From positions 310,001 to 374,000 of the forward strand of contig JAPLAU010000008.1 in NCBI GenBank assembly GCA_026393115.1: 64,000 nt of DNA, given 5' to 3'. Positions 6,931-36,433 of the stretch are shown one piece after another. Numbering within the stretch: the first letter of the stretch is position 1; the number at the start of each line of letters is the position of its first letter. A program made the position numbers and the translations under genes. The notes beneath the pieces are model-generated. The model did no database searches and was not told the origin of the DNA. It saw only the letters and a program-made list of their open reading frames with translations. Source of the stretch: Actinomycetota bacterium (lineage in GTDB: Bacteria > Actinomycetota > Actinomycetes > S36-B12 > CAIYMF01).

Positions 6931-7410
6931 ATGGCCGATTTCCGCGCGCTAGTGATCACGGTGTCGACGCGTGCTGCGGCGGGAGTGTGGGACGACCGTT
7001 CGGGGCCGATTCTGCGCGATGGGTTGGTGGCGTTGGGTCTTGACGTTGACGGCCCGGTTGTGGTGGCCGACGGTGACGCAGTGGAGCTGGCACTGCGTGA
7101 GGGAGTGGCTGAGGGGTTCCACGCGATCGTGACGACGGGTGGTACCGGGCTCACGCCGACCGACCTGACTCCGGAAATGACGGCGCGCGTCGTTGATCGC
7201 GCGATTCCGGGCATCGCTGAAGCGTTGCGTTCAGGTGGAGTGGCGGCGGGTGTTCCGACCGCGATCCTTTCCCGTGGCATTGCAGGAACGGCGGGGCAGA
7301 CGCTGATCGTGAATCTGCCGGGTTCACCGGGCGGGGTGCGTGACGGACTCGCGACGCTGGGGCCGATCCTCATCCACGCGCTTGAACAGATCCCCGGCTC
7401 CGACCACTAA
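6931..7410 (+). CDS. Molybdopterin adenylyltransferase-family protein (MogA/MoaB)
   Basis: A 159-residue protein of the MogA/MoaB family, which adenylylates molybdopterin before metal insertion by MoeA. Conserved features are VSTRAAAGVWDDRSG near the start, TTGGTGLTPTDLTPE in the middle and LPGSPGGVRDGL near the C-terminus. I use ATG at 6931, one base after the moaC stop, instead of an in-frame start at 6889 inside moaC. It is the last gene of the operon. Downstream lies a 317-base convergent gap holding repeats and the convergent end of fhs. Confidence 0.93.
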   Translation: MADFRALVITVSTRAAAGVWDDRSGPILRDGLVALGLDVDGPVVVADGDAVELALREGVAEGFHAIVTTGGTGLTPTDLTPEMTARVVDRAIPGIAEALRSGGVAAGVPTAILSRGIAGTAGQTLIVNLPGSPGGVRDGLATLGPILIHALEQIPGSDH

Positions 7411-7439
7411 ACCACTTACCCCCTGACCCCCCTCTCTCT

Positions 7440-7522
7440 TTTCCGCACTTTCCCGCACTTTCCGCACTTCCCCGCACTTTCCGCACTTTCCCGCACTTTT
7501 CCGCACTTCCCCGCACTTTCCC
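7440..7522. repeat. Short tandem repeat, unit CCGCACTTTC (9-10 bp), about nine copies
   Basis: About nine imperfect head-to-tail copies of CCGCACTTTC, differing mainly in the number of T and C residues (CCGCACTTTC, CCGCACTTCC and CCGCACTTTT forms). It sits in the convergent gap between mog (plus) and fhs (minus) and runs directly into the first 48-50 bp dispersed element. Read on the minus strand the unit is GAAAGTGCGG, which resembles the GGGGAAAGT block of the repeat at 16570. Length variation between units suggests slippage. It does not have CRISPR architecture. Confidence 0.9.
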
Positions 7523-7570
7523 GCATGGGGGGACATTAGGCACGCATAGGCGCAGTTCTCGGTACACCCA
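7521..7570 (+). repeat. Dispersed 48-50 bp element, copy A
   Basis: First of four near-identical copies in this window. The blocks CGCATGGGGGGACA, GCACGCATAG and GCAGTT are shared with copies at 7669-7716, 14406-14453 and 35556-35603. The outer ends TGGGG and (weaker here) CACCCA can pair. Copy A lies 110 bases downstream of mog, in the same orientation as that gene, and faces copy B as an inverted pair with 98 bases between them. Confidence 0.9.
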
Positions 7571-7646: not shown

Positions 7647-7674
7647 ACCCCAGCGCTCGGAATCTCCTTGGGGT
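7647..7674 (-). terminator. Possible hairpin between convergent operons
   Basis: ACCCCA (7647-7652) and TGGGGT (7669-7674) can pair around a 16-base loop, about 55 bases beyond the fhs stop. The right arm is also the outer arm of dispersed copy B, so two alternative pairings exist. There is no long T tract, so an intrinsic terminator role is only a possibility. Confidence 0.35.
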
Positions 7675-7716
7675 AGAAAAACTGCCTCTATGCGTGCTGA
7701 GTGTCCCCCCATGCGG
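7669..7716 (-). repeat. Dispersed 48-50 bp element, copy B
   Basis: Second copy, on the minus strand, starting 11 bases after the fhs stop codon and in the same direction as fhs. It is 48 bp and ends with TACCCCA when read on the minus strand, pairing with the internal TGGGG. It carries all shared blocks of the family and forms an inverted pair with copy A. Confidence 0.92.
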
Positions 7717-13697: not shown

Positions 13698-14354
13698 TTA
13701 CAGGGCTCTGCGGATTGCTGTTTCAAAGCCGCCAATGTGAGCGGCCATGGTGTCGGCGGCGCGTTGTTCATCGCCGTCGCGCACCGCTTCGAGAATGGCG
13801 CGGTGTTCGAGCACAGCGTCGTTGAGATGCTCGAGGCGATCGAGTGCGAGGAACCAGATGCGCAATGCGTGGGTGTAGTAGTCGTCGAGTACACCTTCGA
13901 GGAATGGGTTGCGCGCACAGCGGTAGATGAAGCGGTGCAGACGCTGATCGAGTGCCATCAGATCGCGACCCTGCGGTTGACCAGCGATCGTGTCGAGGGC
14001 GTGCAGCAGGTGGTCGAGTTCGAGTCGGTCATCGTCGGCGAGGCGCTGTGCGGCGAGGCGGGCGGCCGCGGGTTCGAGCATTTCGCGGGCTTCCGACAGC
14101 GAGGCGAGATCGCGCGCATCGATTCCGGCGACGAACATGCCGCGGCGGGGGTAGACGTCGACGAGCCGTTCGTGGGCTAGGGCGCGCAGGGCTTCGCGCA
14201 CGGGGGTGCGGCCCATATGCAGGCGCTTCATCAGGTCGGCTTCGCTGATCACCGCACCGGGTGGAAGTTCGAGCGTGACGATGAGGTCGCGGATTTCAAG
14301 GCGTGCCTGCTCGGAGAGCAGGAGAGGCTCAGATTCGGACGGGACGGCGACCAC
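13698..14354 (-). CDS. GntR/FCD-family transcriptional regulator
   Basis: A 218-residue regulator with an N-terminal winged helix (residues about 15-75, with MKRLHMGRTPVREALRAL as the recognition region) and a C-terminal all-helical FCD domain, which usually binds a small acid or metal ion. I use GTG at 14354 because the open frame further upstream runs through dispersed repeat copy C and a palindrome, which look like non-coding DNA. The gene is first in the operon with the dimethylglycine dehydrogenase-like gene, etfBA and fhs (53-base gap to the next gene). It is divergent from the VOC-sdaA unit and probably controls both. Confidence 0.9.
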   Translation of the reverse strand: MVAVPSESEPLLLSEQARLEIRDLIVTLELPPGAVISEADLMKRLHMGRTPVREALRALAHERLVDVYPRRGMFVAGIDARDLASLSEAREMLEPAAARLAAQRLADDDRLELDHLLHALDTIAGQPQGRDLMALDQRLHRFIYRCARNPFLEGVLDDYYTHALRIWFLALDRLEHLNDAVLEHRAILEAVRDGDEQRAADTMAAHIGGFETAIRRAL

Positions 14355-14405: not shown

Positions 14406-14453
14406 CCGCATGGGGGGACACTCAGCACGCATAGACGCAGTTTTCCTGCCCCA
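14406..14453 (+). repeat. Dispersed 48-50 bp element, copy C
   Basis: Third copy, 48 bp, plus strand, in the divergent gtnR/VOC gap, ending 33 bases before the VOC start codon. It has CGCATGGGGGGACA, GCACGCATAG, GCAGTT and terminal GCCCCA. Unlike the other copies it sits at the 5' side of genes, so it would be in the leader of VOC-sdaA or antisense to the gntR promoter region. Confidence 0.92.
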
Positions 14454-14486: not shown

Positions 14487-15152
14487 ATGGCCGCTCAGCC
14501 CGTGCTCGTGGATCACGTCGTGATTGTGAGCCTCGACGTCGACGACACCTGTCAACGGCTGTACGACGCGACGGGATTAGCGAGCATTGCTGGTGGTGTT
14601 CACGAAGGATTTGGTACCGCGAACCGCATTGTTCCCCTTGGAACCGGCTACCTCGAGATTCTCGCCGTCGACGACGCGACCCTCGCCGCACTTAACCCTT
14701 TCGGGCAACTGGCCCTCGCGGGGGCGGCTACGGCGCGGGATTCGGGCCAGGTCGAGCATCTCGCTGCGTGGAGTGCCTGCGTGCCCTCGGTAGAGCGCGC
14801 GGCCGAAGCGACTGGCGGTGAGGTGATGGCGCTGTCGCGAGCAGGGGTCAGTGTGCGCTTGACGGGCATTGCGGAAGCAACAGTCAATCCGTCGCTGCCG
14901 TTCATGTTGCAGCGTGCCGAAGGCCAGGTGAGCCCGGAATCGCGCAACGCTGATCATCGAGTGCAGCCGACGGGAGTCGCGCGACTCATCGCCTCGAGCC
15001 CGACGTCCAATCGTTGGGCGGAACACCTGCCATTGGGTGCTACTGAATTCGACGTCACTACGGGTGACGCCGCGCTGCTTTCTGTCGAAATCGCGTTCGC
15101 CGACGGAACGCTCACGTGTCTCACGGCGCAGTCGCCAACCGGCGAGGTCTGA
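14487..15152 (+). CDS. VOC/glyoxalase-like domain protein of unknown function
   Basis: A 221-residue protein that looks like the Glyoxalase_3-like branch of the vicinal oxygen chelate fold: the start [18 protein letters not shown], then [21 protein letters not shown] is typical of these families. Start ATG 14487 gives the family-like N-terminus. The frame continues upstream through the dispersed repeat and is not taken as coding. It ends 1 base before sdaA, so the two are coexpressed. No substrate can be named. Context suggests a compound in betaine or serine breakdown. Confidence 0.75.
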
Positions 15153-15153
15153 C

Positions 15154-16518
15154 ATGGCCGTCAGCGTCTTCGAGTTGTTCTCGATCGGAATCGGACCTTC
15201 GAGTTCGCATACCGTGGGTCCGATGCGTGCGGCGAATGCATTTGCGCACGCTCTTGAGGCCGAAGGCACTATCGCCGCTACCCGGCGTGTGTGCGTCGAA
15301 CTTCTTGGATCACTCGGAGCTACCGGGCGTGGACACCATTCCGATCGCGCGGTGATGCTCGGGCTGATGGGACACGCGCCCGAGACGGTTGACCCTCGTG
15401 CGGTGGATTCCCTGCTTGAACGCGTTCGTCAATCGCATCGACTTGATCTGATTGGTCAGTGGCCGATCGAATTCGACGAACACGATGACCTCTCGTTAAT
15501 CGGAGCGGTGGTGCTACCCAGGCATCCCAATGCCATGGTGTTCAGGGCTTTTGATGGAGGGGGGACGTTGCTGCGAAAGGGCACGTACTACTCCGTGGGT
15601 GGTGGTTTCGTACTTGACGATGCCGACCATGAAGTGGTGCCGGCCGCGCACGTCGAACCGCTGCCACTTCCTTTCAGTACCGGGGCTCAACTCTTGGCGC
15701 GGTGCAGTGAGTCGGGCCGCGGTGTCAGTGGCGTCATGCGTGCAAATGAGGAAGTGCTGCGAACGCCCGAGGAAATCGAATCGGGGCTGCTCGAAATCTG
15801 GAGAGTGATGCAGGACTGCGTTCGTGCGGGGTGCGAGACTCCTGGCATACTGCCGGGTGGGTTGTCGGTCAGACGTCGAGCTTCCGAACTTCGCACGCAG
15901 CTCGACAAGGGTTCCGACGACCCGTTGCATGTGCTTGATTGGGTGTCGCTCTATGCGCTCGCGGTGAATGAGGAAAACGCAGCTGGTGGGCGTGTGGTCA
16001 CTGCGCCAACCAATGGAGCCGCAGGCATCATTCCGGCCGTGCTGCACTACTACCGCCACTGGGTTCCTGAAGCGACGGATGAGGGAGTGGTGCGTTTTCT
16101 TCTCACCGCCGGCGCGATCGCTTTGATCGTGAAGGAGAACGCATCAATCTCTGGTGCCGAGGTGGGGTGTCAGGGTGAAGTCGGCTCGGCGTGTGCGATG
16201 GCTGCCGCGGGGTTGACCGAGGTGATGGGTGGAAGTCCTGAGCAGGTCGAAAATGCTGCCGAGATTGCGATGGAGCACAACCTCGGACTTACCTGCGATC
16301 CGATTGGCGGGCTGGTGCAGATTCCGTGTATTGAGCGGAATGCCGTGGCTGCGGTGAAGGCGATTGCGGCATCCCGCACTGCGCTCAATGGTGACGGAGT
16401 TCATGTGGTGTCGCTAGATCAGGTCATCCGCACGATGAGGCAAACGGGCGCCGACATGATGAGCATCTACAAGGAAACCTCACTCGGAGGACTCGCCGTC
16501 AATGTCATTGAGTGCTGA
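15154..16518 (+). CDS. sdaA: L-serine ammonia-lyase (iron-sulfur, single chain)
   Basis: Converts L-serine to pyruvate and ammonia with a [4Fe-4S] cluster. The 454-residue length matches the single-chain form with fused beta and alpha parts. The N-terminal [18 protein letters not shown] segment, the central [22 protein letters not shown] region and the C-terminal [18 protein letters not shown] supply the cluster cysteines. It follows the VOC gene with a one-base gap and ends at a G-rich repeat before a convergent gene. In the locus it provides the exit from glycine/serine to central metabolism, since methylene-THF plus glycine yields serine through GlyA, which is not in the window. Confidence 0.96.
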
Positions 16519-16569
16519 GGTGGGGCGCCGGAACGCGCTAGGTGCGCGCTTGGGTGCCCCCGATGTTAA

Positions 16570-16680
16570 GGGGGGAAAGTAACGGGGGGAGGGGGAAAGT
16601 AACGGGGGAAAGTAACGGGGGAAAGTCAAGGGGGAGGGGAAGGGGGGTGGGATCAGCGGGGAGTTGGAGGGGGGAGCAAG
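16570..16680. repeat. G-rich tandem repeat, unit GGGGGAAAGTAAC, then further G tracts
   Basis: Four units of GGGGGAAAGTAAC-like sequence between 16570 and 16630, followed by runs of four to six G up to about 16675. It lies in the convergent gap between sdaA and the DUF1638 gene and reaches into the 3' end of the latter, encoding its Leu/Pro-rich tail. The GGGGAAAGT block resembles the reverse complement of the repeat at 7440. Many G runs close together could form G-quadruplexes on the plus strand. Confidence 0.85.
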
Positions 16681-33472: not shown

Positions 33473-35563
33473 GTGGTAATCGTGCAGAGCCGGTATGAAG
33501 CCGTTCTCGACACTCTCGAGGCCGGCGTTGTGATTCACGCTGCCGACACGTCGATTCTTGAGGCCAATGAGCGCGCTCGCGTCCTTCTTGGGCTCAACGA
33601 TCTAGAAGGCCGACTCGCGACCGACCCCGAGTGGGAGTTCCTCGAAGCCGATCGCTCACCTATGGCCCTAGATCGTTTCCCGGTGATGCAGGTGATCGCA
33701 TCAGGAAAACCACTCAATGGCCTGGTGTTGATTATTCGACCACCTGGGAAGTCAGACGTCTGGTGCGAAGTTAGTGCGGTTCCCGTTGTTGACGATGTCG
33801 GACAGTTGCGGGAAGTCGTCGTGACGTTCATCGATATCACCGAGCGCAAGCGCGTAGAGGAAGAGTTGATCGCGAGCGAAGAACTGCTGCGGGTGGTCCT
33901 CGACACGTCATCAGACGCCACGTTCCGCACCGGACCTGACCATCGAATTGAGTATGTGAACCAGCGGGTTGCGCAGATTTCCGGTATTCCAGCTAGCCAG
34001 TGGATTGGCAAGAGGATCACCGACATGGGCCTACCAGCCGAACTCGCACGCGTCTGGGAGGCGCGTCGTAGCAGTGTCTTCTCCACGGGTGAGTCGGTCA
34101 CGTTCGAGTTCGAAATCGACAACATCGAGGGTCATCGCTGGTATGAGACGACCATTGCCCCCGGGTTTGATCCTGACGGCATGGTGGTGCGCACCATCGA
34201 GACGAGTAGAGACTTCACCGATCGCAAAGCCGCGAGCGACGCGCTGCAGGAGTTGGCCACCCATGACCCTTTGACCGGGCTGGCCAATCGAACCGAACTG
34301 CTAAACGAGATCACTCGCGCATTGGGTGCGGGGCATCGTTTGGGTCGCGCGATCGGGGTCGTGCTGATGGACCTCGACCGGTTCAAGGACGTGAACGACA
34401 CCTTGGGGCACGCTGCCGGTGACGAGTTGCTGATCGCCGCAGCCACGCGCGTCGAGAGCGTGGCACGCGATGGTGACCTTGTGGCACGACTTGGCGGTGA
34501 CGAATTCGTGGTCGTGATGCGCGACCTCGAGGATCCTTCAGAAGCGCTGGCAGTTGCCATGCAACTTTTGCAGGCATTCCGGACCCCTTTCATGGTGCGC
34601 GAGGTTGAGTTGTATTCGCCCACCAGCATCGGGGTGGCAATCACGACCGATGGTGAGGACGCCGACGACCTCATGCGTGAAGCGGACACGGCGCTCTACT
34701 CTGCGAAGGAGGCGGGTCGCGATCGGGTGGCGGTGTTCAATGAAGAACTGCGCGCCGCAATCACCGGCCAGTTGGCTGTCGAGGCTGACCTGAGGCATGC
34801 ACTGACGCGGGGCCAACTCGACGTGTGGTACCAGCCTGAGATCGACCTCGAGACCGGGTTTGTGATCGCACTAGAAGCGCTGCTGCGCTGGCACCATCCC
34901 GACGGATCGGTGTGGACTGCCGACCGGTTCGTCGATGTAGCTGAGCAAACGGGACAGATACAAGAGATCGGCGATTGGGTTCTGAATCAGGCGTGCCAGC
35001 AGGCTGCCGACTGGGCCGCCAAGCGACCCGGCCAGCGAGCGACGGTGCGGGTGAACATGTCCACGCTTCAGATCGCTATGCCCGGACTCTTGTCGACTCT
35101 TGACCGGGCTTTGGCCGCGAGCGGGCTGGATCCTGGCTTGTTGTGTATCGAGATCACTGAAACGGTGTTGCTACGACAGAGCGCGATCGCTCGTGACAAC
35201 ATTGCCGGAATTCATGAGCGAGGGGCCAGCATCGCTATCGATGATTTCGGCACCGGTTACGCATCCTTGACCTACCTGAACCACTACCCCATCGATGTCA
35301 TCAAGATCGACCGTAGTTTCATCGCTGACATCACGTTGCTCGGACATAACCACCGGCTCGTGGCCGGCATCATCGCCTTGGCGACGATGCTGGGAATCAC
35401 CGTGACGGCCGAAGGGGTTGAGCGGCCGGCGCAGGTTGATCTCCTGCGCCAAATGGGATGTCCTTCAGCGCAGGGCTTTCTGTTCTCGCGGGCTCTGCCC
35501 GCGGACGAGATTACGCCGCTTCTCAACCGCAGTTACTACACAAATTCACCGGCGCTGGGGTAA
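33473..35563 (+). CDS. Sensor with two PAS domains, GGDEF and EAL domains
   Basis: A 696-residue protein for cyclic-di-GMP turnover. PAS1 is about residues 5-125 (ending TFIDITERKRVEEEL), PAS2 about 130-255 (ending SRDFTDRKAASDAL), GGDEF about 258-425 with the motif GGDEF intact at 341-345, and EAL about 440-690 with the motif EAL intact at 468-470 and DFGTGYASL downstream. Both diguanylate cyclase and phosphodiesterase activities are therefore possible. No transmembrane segment is seen, so sensing is cytoplasmic. Start GTG 33473 (or GTG 33482). The stop codon lies inside dispersed repeat copy D, which has formed the last few codons. Confidence 0.93.
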   Translation: MVIVQSRYEAVLDTLEAGVVIHAADTSILEANERARVLLGLNDLEGRLATDPEWEFLEADRSPMALDRFPVMQVIASGKPLNGLVLIIRPPGKSDVWCEVSAVPVVDDVGQLREVVVTFIDITERKRVEEELIASEELLRVVLDTSSDATFRTGPDHRIEYVNQRVAQISGIPASQWIGKRITDMGLPAELARVWEARRSSVFSTGESVTFEFEIDNIEGHRWYETTIAPGFDPDGMVVRTIETSRDFTDRKAASDALQELATHDPLTGLANRTELLNEITRALGAGHRLGRAIGVVLMDLDRFKDVNDTLGHAAGDELLIAAATRVESVARDGDLVARLGGDEFVVVMRDLEDPSEALAVAMQLLQAFRTPFMVREVELYSPTSIGVAITTDGEDADDLMREADTALYSAKEAGRDRVAVFNEELRAAITGQLAVEADLRHALTRGQLDVWYQPEIDLETGFVIALEALLRWHHPDGSVWTADRFVDVAEQTGQIQEIGDWVLNQACQQAADWAAKRPGQRATVRVNMSTLQIAMPGLLSTLDRALAASGLDPGLLCIEITETVLLRQSAIARDNIAGIHERGASIAIDDFGTGYASLTYLNHYPIDVIKIDRSFIADITLLGHNHRLVAGIIALATMLGITVTAEGVERPAQVDLLRQMGCPSAQGFLFSRALPADEITPLLNRSYYTNSPALG

Positions 35564-35603
35564 GAAAACTGCGCCTATGCGTGCTGGATGTCCCCCCATG
35601 CGT
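35556..35603 (-). repeat. Dispersed 48-50 bp element, copy D
   Basis: Fourth copy, 48 bp on the minus strand. Its terminal CCCCA overlaps the last codons and stop of the GGDEF-EAL gene. Read on the minus strand it follows the HisA-like gene by about 50 bases. All shared blocks are present. On the plus-strand right side it is followed by a long purine/G-rich run. Confidence 0.92.
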
Positions 35604-35650
35604 AAAAAGGGGGGGAGCAAGAAGGGGGAGAGGGGGAGGGAGAGGGCGGA
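35604..35650. repeat. Purine-rich G-tract region
   Basis: A run of AAAAAGGGGGGG, then GGGGG, GGGGG, GGG and GGG tracts separated by A, GA or CAAGAA, in the convergent gap between the GGDEF-EAL gene and the HisA-like gene. It abuts dispersed copy D, as the repeat at 7440 abuts copy A. G-quadruplex formation on the plus strand is possible. Confidence 0.75.
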
Positions 35651-35653
35651 AGT

Positions 35654-36433
35654 TCAGCCGATCGGTGGGCCCCAGAAGAACAGGTCGTAGCGCTCCTCAA
35701 GCGCGGCTACTGCCTCGGCGAAGGTGAAGCCGCCGGTGTAGAGCGCCGCATCGATGACGGCGCCATCGAGTCCGTGTGGGATGAGTTCGGTGAGGGCGTG
35801 CAAGTCACCCAAGCGGAACACGCCGCCGCCGCTGACGGCGTGGCCGTGCACCGAACGAATGACGGTTTCGAGTGCGTTGCGCTCGTGCGACTTACGGATA
35901 CCGCGCGAATCGACATCGGTGATGAGGTAGGCGTGGGCCTTAGTGTCGCGCGCTTGCAGGAGTAGTGCCTCAAGGTCGGTCTCGTGAAGCCCTGATCGCG
36001 GCGCGAATACGCGCTTACCTTCTGAGGAGATTCCGACGACAACGCGATCGCCATACGTAGCGACCAGAGCAGCAACGGCCTCAGGGTCGTCGAGTGCTTC
36101 GGTGTCGAGCACCACACGCGCAGCACCCATCGCCAGTGCAGCGTCGACGTTGGCCGCCGTGGTGTAGCCACCTGCCACCTGAACATGTGCGCGTGCGCGA
36201 CTCTCGCGAATGATCGATGCAACCATCGTGGAGTTACTGCCGGTTCCGGCGTAGCCGTCGAGGTCGGCCACGTGCAGCCACCGTGCGCCTTGGCTCACGA
36301 AGTGCCGCGCCGCCTCGACCGGGTCACCGAAGGTGTGGGCGCTGTCGATCTCGCCGTGATGCAGGGTGCTGAGGGCGCCCTGGGAGATCTCGACTCCGGC
36401 GAACAGGGTGAATGGGGGGCGGTGAGGGGTCAT
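35654..36433 (-). CDS. HisA/PriA-like barrel protein lacking catalytic aspartates
   Basis: A 259-residue TIM-barrel protein resembling HisA/PriA (phosphoribosylformimino-5-aminoimidazole carboxamide ribotide isomerase): FTLFAGVEISQG, WLHVADLDGYAGTGSN, VQVAGGYTTAANVDAALAMGAARVVLDTEAL, and the C-terminal AVSGGGVFRLGDLHAL ... GAVIDAALYTGGFTFAEAV follow that fold. The catalytic Asp of strand 1 is Glu15, and the second catalytic Asp, usually in LDxR, is replaced in VVVGISSEG. It is therefore probably a paralogue with changed activity. ATG 36433 overlaps the YihY stop by 4 bases; the longer upstream frame is not accepted because it lies inside yihY. Confidence 0.8.
   Translation of the reverse strand: MTPHRPPFTLFAGVEISQGALSTLHHGEIDSAHTFGDPVEAARHFVSQGARWLHVADLDGYAGTGSNSTMVASIIRESRARAHVQVAGGYTTAANVDAALAMGAARVVLDTEALDDPEAVAALVATYGDRVVVGISSEGKRVFAPRSGLHETDLEALLLQARDTKAHAYLITDVDSRGIRKSHERNALETVIRSVHGHAVSGGGVFRLGDLHALTELIPHGLDGAVIDAALYTGGFTFAEAVAALEERYDLFFWGPPIG

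Follow-up and report, generated by a model that had tools for sequence, protein, structure and literature searches.

A dispersed 46-bp intergenic element that looks like a selected DNA site with a length-unstable C-rich flank in one genus of Actinomycetota

A short sequence upstream of a VOC-sdaA gene pair recurs within the window (the whole stretch of 64,000 nucleotides analysed here), and the question is what holds such copies in a genome: the sequence-only reading had left the choice between a REP-like element (whether mobile or selected), a structured RNA and a protein-binding site. The four copies it reported are real, the exact 23-base core being matched four times in the window (at 7523+, 7688-, 14408+ and 35575-) against zero matches in 100 shuffles. 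The sequences and positions first given stand, except that the conserved unit is 46 bp (GCATGGGGGGACAYTNRGCACGCATAGRSGCAGTTTTNNNNCCCCA) and that the earlier length of 48 bp adds two bases of a TTTCC that usually precedes it directly. In this family, called F1, the conserved unit starts with GCATGGGGGG (consensus start TTTCCGCATGGGG) and ends with CCCCA; the pairing ends TGGGG and CCCCA are kept in most copies but missing from some. A second family, F2 (GCATCGGGGGCACCCAAGCGCGCACCTAGCGCGTTCRGGCGCCCCA), was found by 12-mer counts in 824 kb, namely the rebuilt contigs C23, C5 and C2 of the window's own genome, of which 12.2% is intergenic. The copies of both families in the window and their adjoining genes are as follows.

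6931-7410, + strand: MoCF gene, upstream of the F1 copy at 7523
7438..7522, + strand: C-rich tandem-repeat tail, about nine copies of CTTTCCCGCA (Tandem Repeats Finder), abutting the 7523 core
7523..7570, + strand: F1 core with a 3' arm two bases longer (GGTACACCCA); orthologue in the second species
7669..7714, - strand: F1 core, convergent pair with the 7523 copy, 13 nt past the FTHFS stop codon
7728-9395, - strand: FTHFS gene
13698-14354, - strand: GntR gene, divergent, beside the F1 copy at 14408
14408..14453, + strand: F1 core without C-rich tail, intergenic between GntR (-) and VOC-sdaA (+)
16521..16566, - strand: F2 core, between a DUF1638 gene (-) and the end of sdaA (+)
16567..16652, - strand: C-rich tandem-repeat tail of this F2 copy, repeats of CCCCCGTTACTTT
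33473-35563, + strand: EAL/GGDEF gene, converging on the F1 copy at 35556
35556..35601, - strand: F1 core containing the TAA stop of the EAL/GGDEF gene
35602..35653, - strand: pyrimidine-rich tail belonging to the 35556 core, which it separates from the HisA/F-like gene
35654-36433, - strand: HisA/F-like gene

Three of the F1 copies, as previously noticed, follow a gene that points the same way as the element (MoCF, FTHFS and the HisA/F-like gene), and the copy at 14408 indeed stands upstream of VOC-sdaA, with Glyoxalase_3/VOC at 14487+ and then SdaA at 15154+; these two genes thus have an F1 copy before them and an F2 copy after them. The copy at 7669 has no clear tail. Gene calls were made with a simple codon-usage script, with a Pfam check at the window copies. 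The TAA of the EAL/GGDEF gene (35561-35563) lies inside the 35556 copy and, by gene calls, this stop codon is supplied by the TGGGGTAA end of F1 (window 35556-35563) in both species.

In the window's own genome (G000; 3.51 Mb, 34 contigs, 95% complete), 36 exact F1 cores are found, or 45 with up to three mismatches, and 41 of these 45 stand outside called genes although only 12.2% of the DNA is intergenic (p ~3e-33). F2 counts 46 copies in G000 and 47 in the other genome of the genus, a second species (G001), and both families together amount to about 90 copies. Aligned without gaps over 50 columns, F1 and F2 have in common GCAT, GGGG, AGC.CGCA and a CCCA end, and they would best be explained as two subfamilies of one 46-bp polar DNA element, a view that forms part of the overall reading weighed below. 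The basis is two metagenome-type assemblies of one genus, both 95-98% complete. Among 166 genomes of the order that were searched, the 164 others carry neither F1 nor F2, and a sequence profile run over 395 genomes of the class returned only G000 and G001 plus one weak partial match (G223; 18 bits, E=0.005), regarded as chance and not as a member. A scan of 84,980 GTDB genomes, which may leave out the window's own record, found F1 only in CAIYMF01 'uncultured bacterium LJ_bin-5001', whose matches have the same contig numbers and positions as G001 and whose bin name probably links it to a stratified-lake data set (PMC8121793). Viral contigs gave no match, and a virus origin was discarded. No similar C-tract elements appear in two other genera of the family (about 190 kb each). 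A genome of another genus (G002, L178-L187) has abundant intergenic repeats of its own, of GGTCTCGACTACGCTCGACCACC and CGTGAAAGACCGGGCGAGTAC types, which bear no sequence relationship to F1 and F2. The earlier statement that the element matches no known family thus holds for every collection searched, Rfam giving no match at the element and the literature searched containing neither sequence. F1 and F2 have the look of an undescribed, genus-specific DNA site under selection, not of a jumping repeat.

By their flanks, 44 of the 45 F1 copies of G000 have a G001 counterpart that is oriented alike, with 43 one-to-one pairs; the 14408 copy has its orthologue, with an identical 46-bp core, at G001:C78:34333 (L136/L135). 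F2 sites were common to both species in 20 of 20 cases with both loci available, four copies that were not covered and two with a single matching flank being left out. For the unpaired F1 locus of G000 (L008), G001 lacks the right flank. Four G001 copies are partnerless: at one of them the G000 site (C5:259605) retains the right half of the core, one is rearranged and two have no usable match in the G000 data. None of the sites that could be compared in both genomes proved to be cleanly empty in one of them. Within orthologous pairs, 30 positions of the F1 core differ at 7/1260 (0.6%) and ten interspersed variable positions at 76/420 (18%), and adjacent flanks are about 82% identical when aligned. 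Conservation in place, together with the contrast of 0.6% against 18% and about 82% flank identity, argues for purifying selection on the core and not for recent spread. Thus, of the "mobile or selected" element first suggested, selection is borne out by a core kept in place in two species, whereas mobility is not, for the present. Several orthologous F1 pairs differ by whole blocks (L019/L065, L018/L049, L061/L062), and rare core types (for example TCCA, at L028/L032) are still in place though the tail has changed.

At three loci (L106/L126, L107/L125 and L053/L052) the identity of the two species reaches about 99% or more, most flanks being at about 85-92%, which suggests recent exchange or unusual constraint. 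At the start of G000:C11 (L054:1-172), a contig end, an F1 core breaks off after CATAGGCGC and gives way to different sequence, which may be an insertion sequence; its G001 orthologue (L113) has an intact core.

Most cores have directly on their 5' side a C-rich, G-poor tract of about 20-50 nt, often of short tandem repeats, and then TTTCC. Such tracts are nearly confined to the two families, as 20 of the 30 intergenic ones in the 824 kb lie directly at F1 or F2; of the remainder, one forms the outer stretch of an F1 tail and the others look unlike F1/F2 tails. Repeat units vary by site (CCCCTAA, CACCTCC, CTTTCCCGCA, ACCGCT), and at L227 and L205 the duplications take in part of the core start. 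Tail composition is constant between species while tail sequence changes: the G001 orthologue of the 7523 copy has a shorter, different tract, and that of the 35556 copy (L028/L032) a pyrimidine tract with different wording. The distance that separates the core from the first anchor common to both species has changed on the tail side in 29/40 pairs, against 12/40 on the other side (Fisher p=0.0003), and tails differ even at L106/L126, where the flanks are at least 99.5% alike, and at L273/L203, where the right flank is 99.9% alike. By aligned identity, substitution in the tail is not clearly faster than in the right flank (p=0.056), and because this measure alone does not separate the two, the claim of instability concerns length. 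At L061/L062 the C-rich tract enters the 3' end of a thioesterase-like gene (L061:1863-2327, L062:2832-3281), whose protein C-terminus reads PTATATATATATATA or STATATTATT, depending on the species. This C-terminus is a Thr-Ala repeat of unequal length in the two species.

Placement is also uneven. Counted by unique site, F1 occupies 16 convergent, 12 divergent and 21 tandem spacers, against a background (spacers of at least 70 bp) of 39, 90 and 157, respectively; convergent spacers are enriched for F1 (p=0.003) and for F2 (p=0.0005), and F2 avoids divergent ones. In tandem spacers F2 is mostly sense (15 v 4, p=0.02), whereas F1 is sense in 10 cases and antisense in 11. The pattern of following genes, drawn from the window, therefore extends genome-wide to F2 but not to F1, and the lack of orientation preference in F1 argues against a transcript-level signal. 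F1 is over-represented on the contig carrying dnaA (14/45 copies on 11% of the genome, p=0.0002; 11/39 with neighbours merged, p=0.002), and replication-strand bias by GC skew is not significant (F1 18 v 27, F2 17 v 21). At four sites or more, an F2 core is turned towards an F1 core, the gap from CCCCA to TGGGG being 23 bp (22-25 depending on the arm cut). The spacers of these pairs are unrelated in sequence, and in one pair the spacer is wholly different between species with a length of 23 bp in both. Single cases of an F1-F1 pair at 12 bp and an F2-F2 pair at 34 bp complete a series in steps of 11, one helical turn, which for so few pairs is suggestive only of helical phasing. A full transposon with F1 ends was rejected, as ordinary conserved genes and no transposases lie between inverted F1 pairs.

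The leading reading, with a probability of about 0.45, is that F1 and F2 are a selected, polar, putative protein-binding DNA site with a mutation-prone flank; the binding site among the original proposals would thus come to the fore, binding itself being putative. F1 is conserved in place with an orientation independent of transcription, as expected of a DNA site, and F2 prefers the sense side. The reading is further supported because paired positions do not covary while the sequence itself is fixed. A sequence-specific protein or complex would bind the core as double-stranded DNA and may act as a chromosome landmark, an insulator or a transcription roadblock, and facing cores at 12, 23 and 34 bp would reflect helical phasing. 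The tail would arise by repeated local tandem duplication beside a bound, stalling or nicked core, its C-rich bias perhaps being maintained by mutation or by selection. A bolder version appears rather doubtful: about 90 selected sites in two families of one genus, set in helically phased pairs and putatively bound by a complex, with a core that provokes continuous one-sided tandem duplication and a C-rich tract that can rewrite neighbouring gene ends.

Against a selected site it can be argued that holding more than 40 separate sites requires a local benefit at each, that whole-block differences in orthologous pairs such as L019/L065 could be copying between sites, and that F2 favours the sense side of gene ends; moreover, we know of no site of such length with about 90 copies of such kind. 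The block differences would suit a REP/MITE-like mobile family in which copying from site to site, or homing into existing sites, renews the copies and leaves the tail as a scar. Such a family would also account for dispersed, near-identical, intergenic copies enriched in convergent spacers, for the tandem duplication of a whole F2 unit at L221 and for a one-sided, length-unstable simple-repeat tail of the sort carried by eukaryotic retroposed elements. It is nevertheless rather improbable, since essentially all sites are common to two species about 12-18% diverged (44/45 for F1 and 20/20 testable for F2, instead of the variable insertion sites of MITEs), rare core types stay put while the tail changes, and no target-site duplication is evident, no constant repeat flanking the core as judged by eye. 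The RAYT-type transposase for which a check had been proposed is absent: PF01797 (Y1_Tnp) matches neither G000 nor G001 (95-98% complete), and control genomes match, on which ground a REP/RAYT identity was rejected. REP/REPIN elements with RAYT (PMC3733652, PMC3116915) resemble F1/F2 in being short, dispersed, intergenic and present in tens of copies, with several families per genome and inverted-orientation pairs. F1/F2 differ from them by sites fixed between species, a one-sided C-rich tail, a fixed 46 bp, a weak palindrome and an F1 consensus with neither GTAG nor CGTC at one end; the paired-change stem-loop of REPs is likewise not found, no pair changing on both sides and the score equalling that of shuffles. 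MITEs are, like F1/F2, short and non-coding with inverted end pieces (here TGGGG/CCCCA), and a facing F2-F1 pair resembles a 115-bp MITE-like element with inverted ends; unlike in MITEs, no related transposase was found and the spacers between paired cores are unrelated.

A terminator would explain other features. In a Rho-type module, the tail would be a rut-like Rho-loading RNA and the G-run core a pause or end-point, ending transcripts or suppressing antisense transcription. The C-rich, G-poor composition surviving sequence change, its near-confinement to F1/F2, the convergent enrichment and the mostly sense placement of F2 are all in its favour; Rho-dependent terminators likewise have such a tract of free sequence, often past a stop codon, as is the case for F2 especially. 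However, known rut sites have no fixed 46-bp core, F1 lies in 12 divergent spacers and without orientation preference, some copies lack a tail (14408 and 7669 among them), tails enter coding ends (L061), and the tract at L008 comes after a GC-rich hairpin of intrinsic-terminator type. A simple terminator was rejected for F1, whose orientation is random; the terminator reading fits the tail and F2, not F1 orientation, and is doubtful as a whole. Far less probable is a role at the RNA level, as a structured non-coding RNA or a signal, that depends on a hairpin with a TGGGG/CCCCA outer stem and a small inner stem. The outer stem pairs in most copies, the C/T change at column 18 still pairs with G and CGCGC/GCGCG can form in F2, but no pair shows a compensatory change, the consensus fold is weak, the F2 variants CGCCT and CACCT break the stem, and the element occurs in both orientations. 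The RNA structure initially put forward is thus unlikely, with neither covariation nor an Rfam match behind it.

For a selected DNA site, a close comparison is with the chromosome-organising sites parS, matS and Noc-binding sites, which are 13-16 bp long and have known proteins. They too are conserved, intergenic and number in the tens, and what keeps them in place acts at the DNA level; F1 is like them in being over-represented on the dnaA-carrying contig; F1/F2 differ by their 46 bp, their tails, their two families and a partner protein that is putative only. Short dispersed bacterial repeats are mostly read as mobile debris, whereas here function and local mutation are separable at more than 40 natural replicates, where sites stay fixed and one flank undergoes remodelling. 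Should a protein be found, these would be a new kind of chromosomal site; if there is none, they would offer a natural test of how a population of short repeats persists in bacterial genomes.

A third dispersed intergenic family resembles a MITE or REP: its members are inverted repeats of about 62 bp, CGCGAGTCCATC...GATGGACTCGCG, whose inner arms vary. Copies lie at:

L149:10029-10091 (G000:C23:230029), C5:156582, C5:188773, C5:196806 and C2:164108
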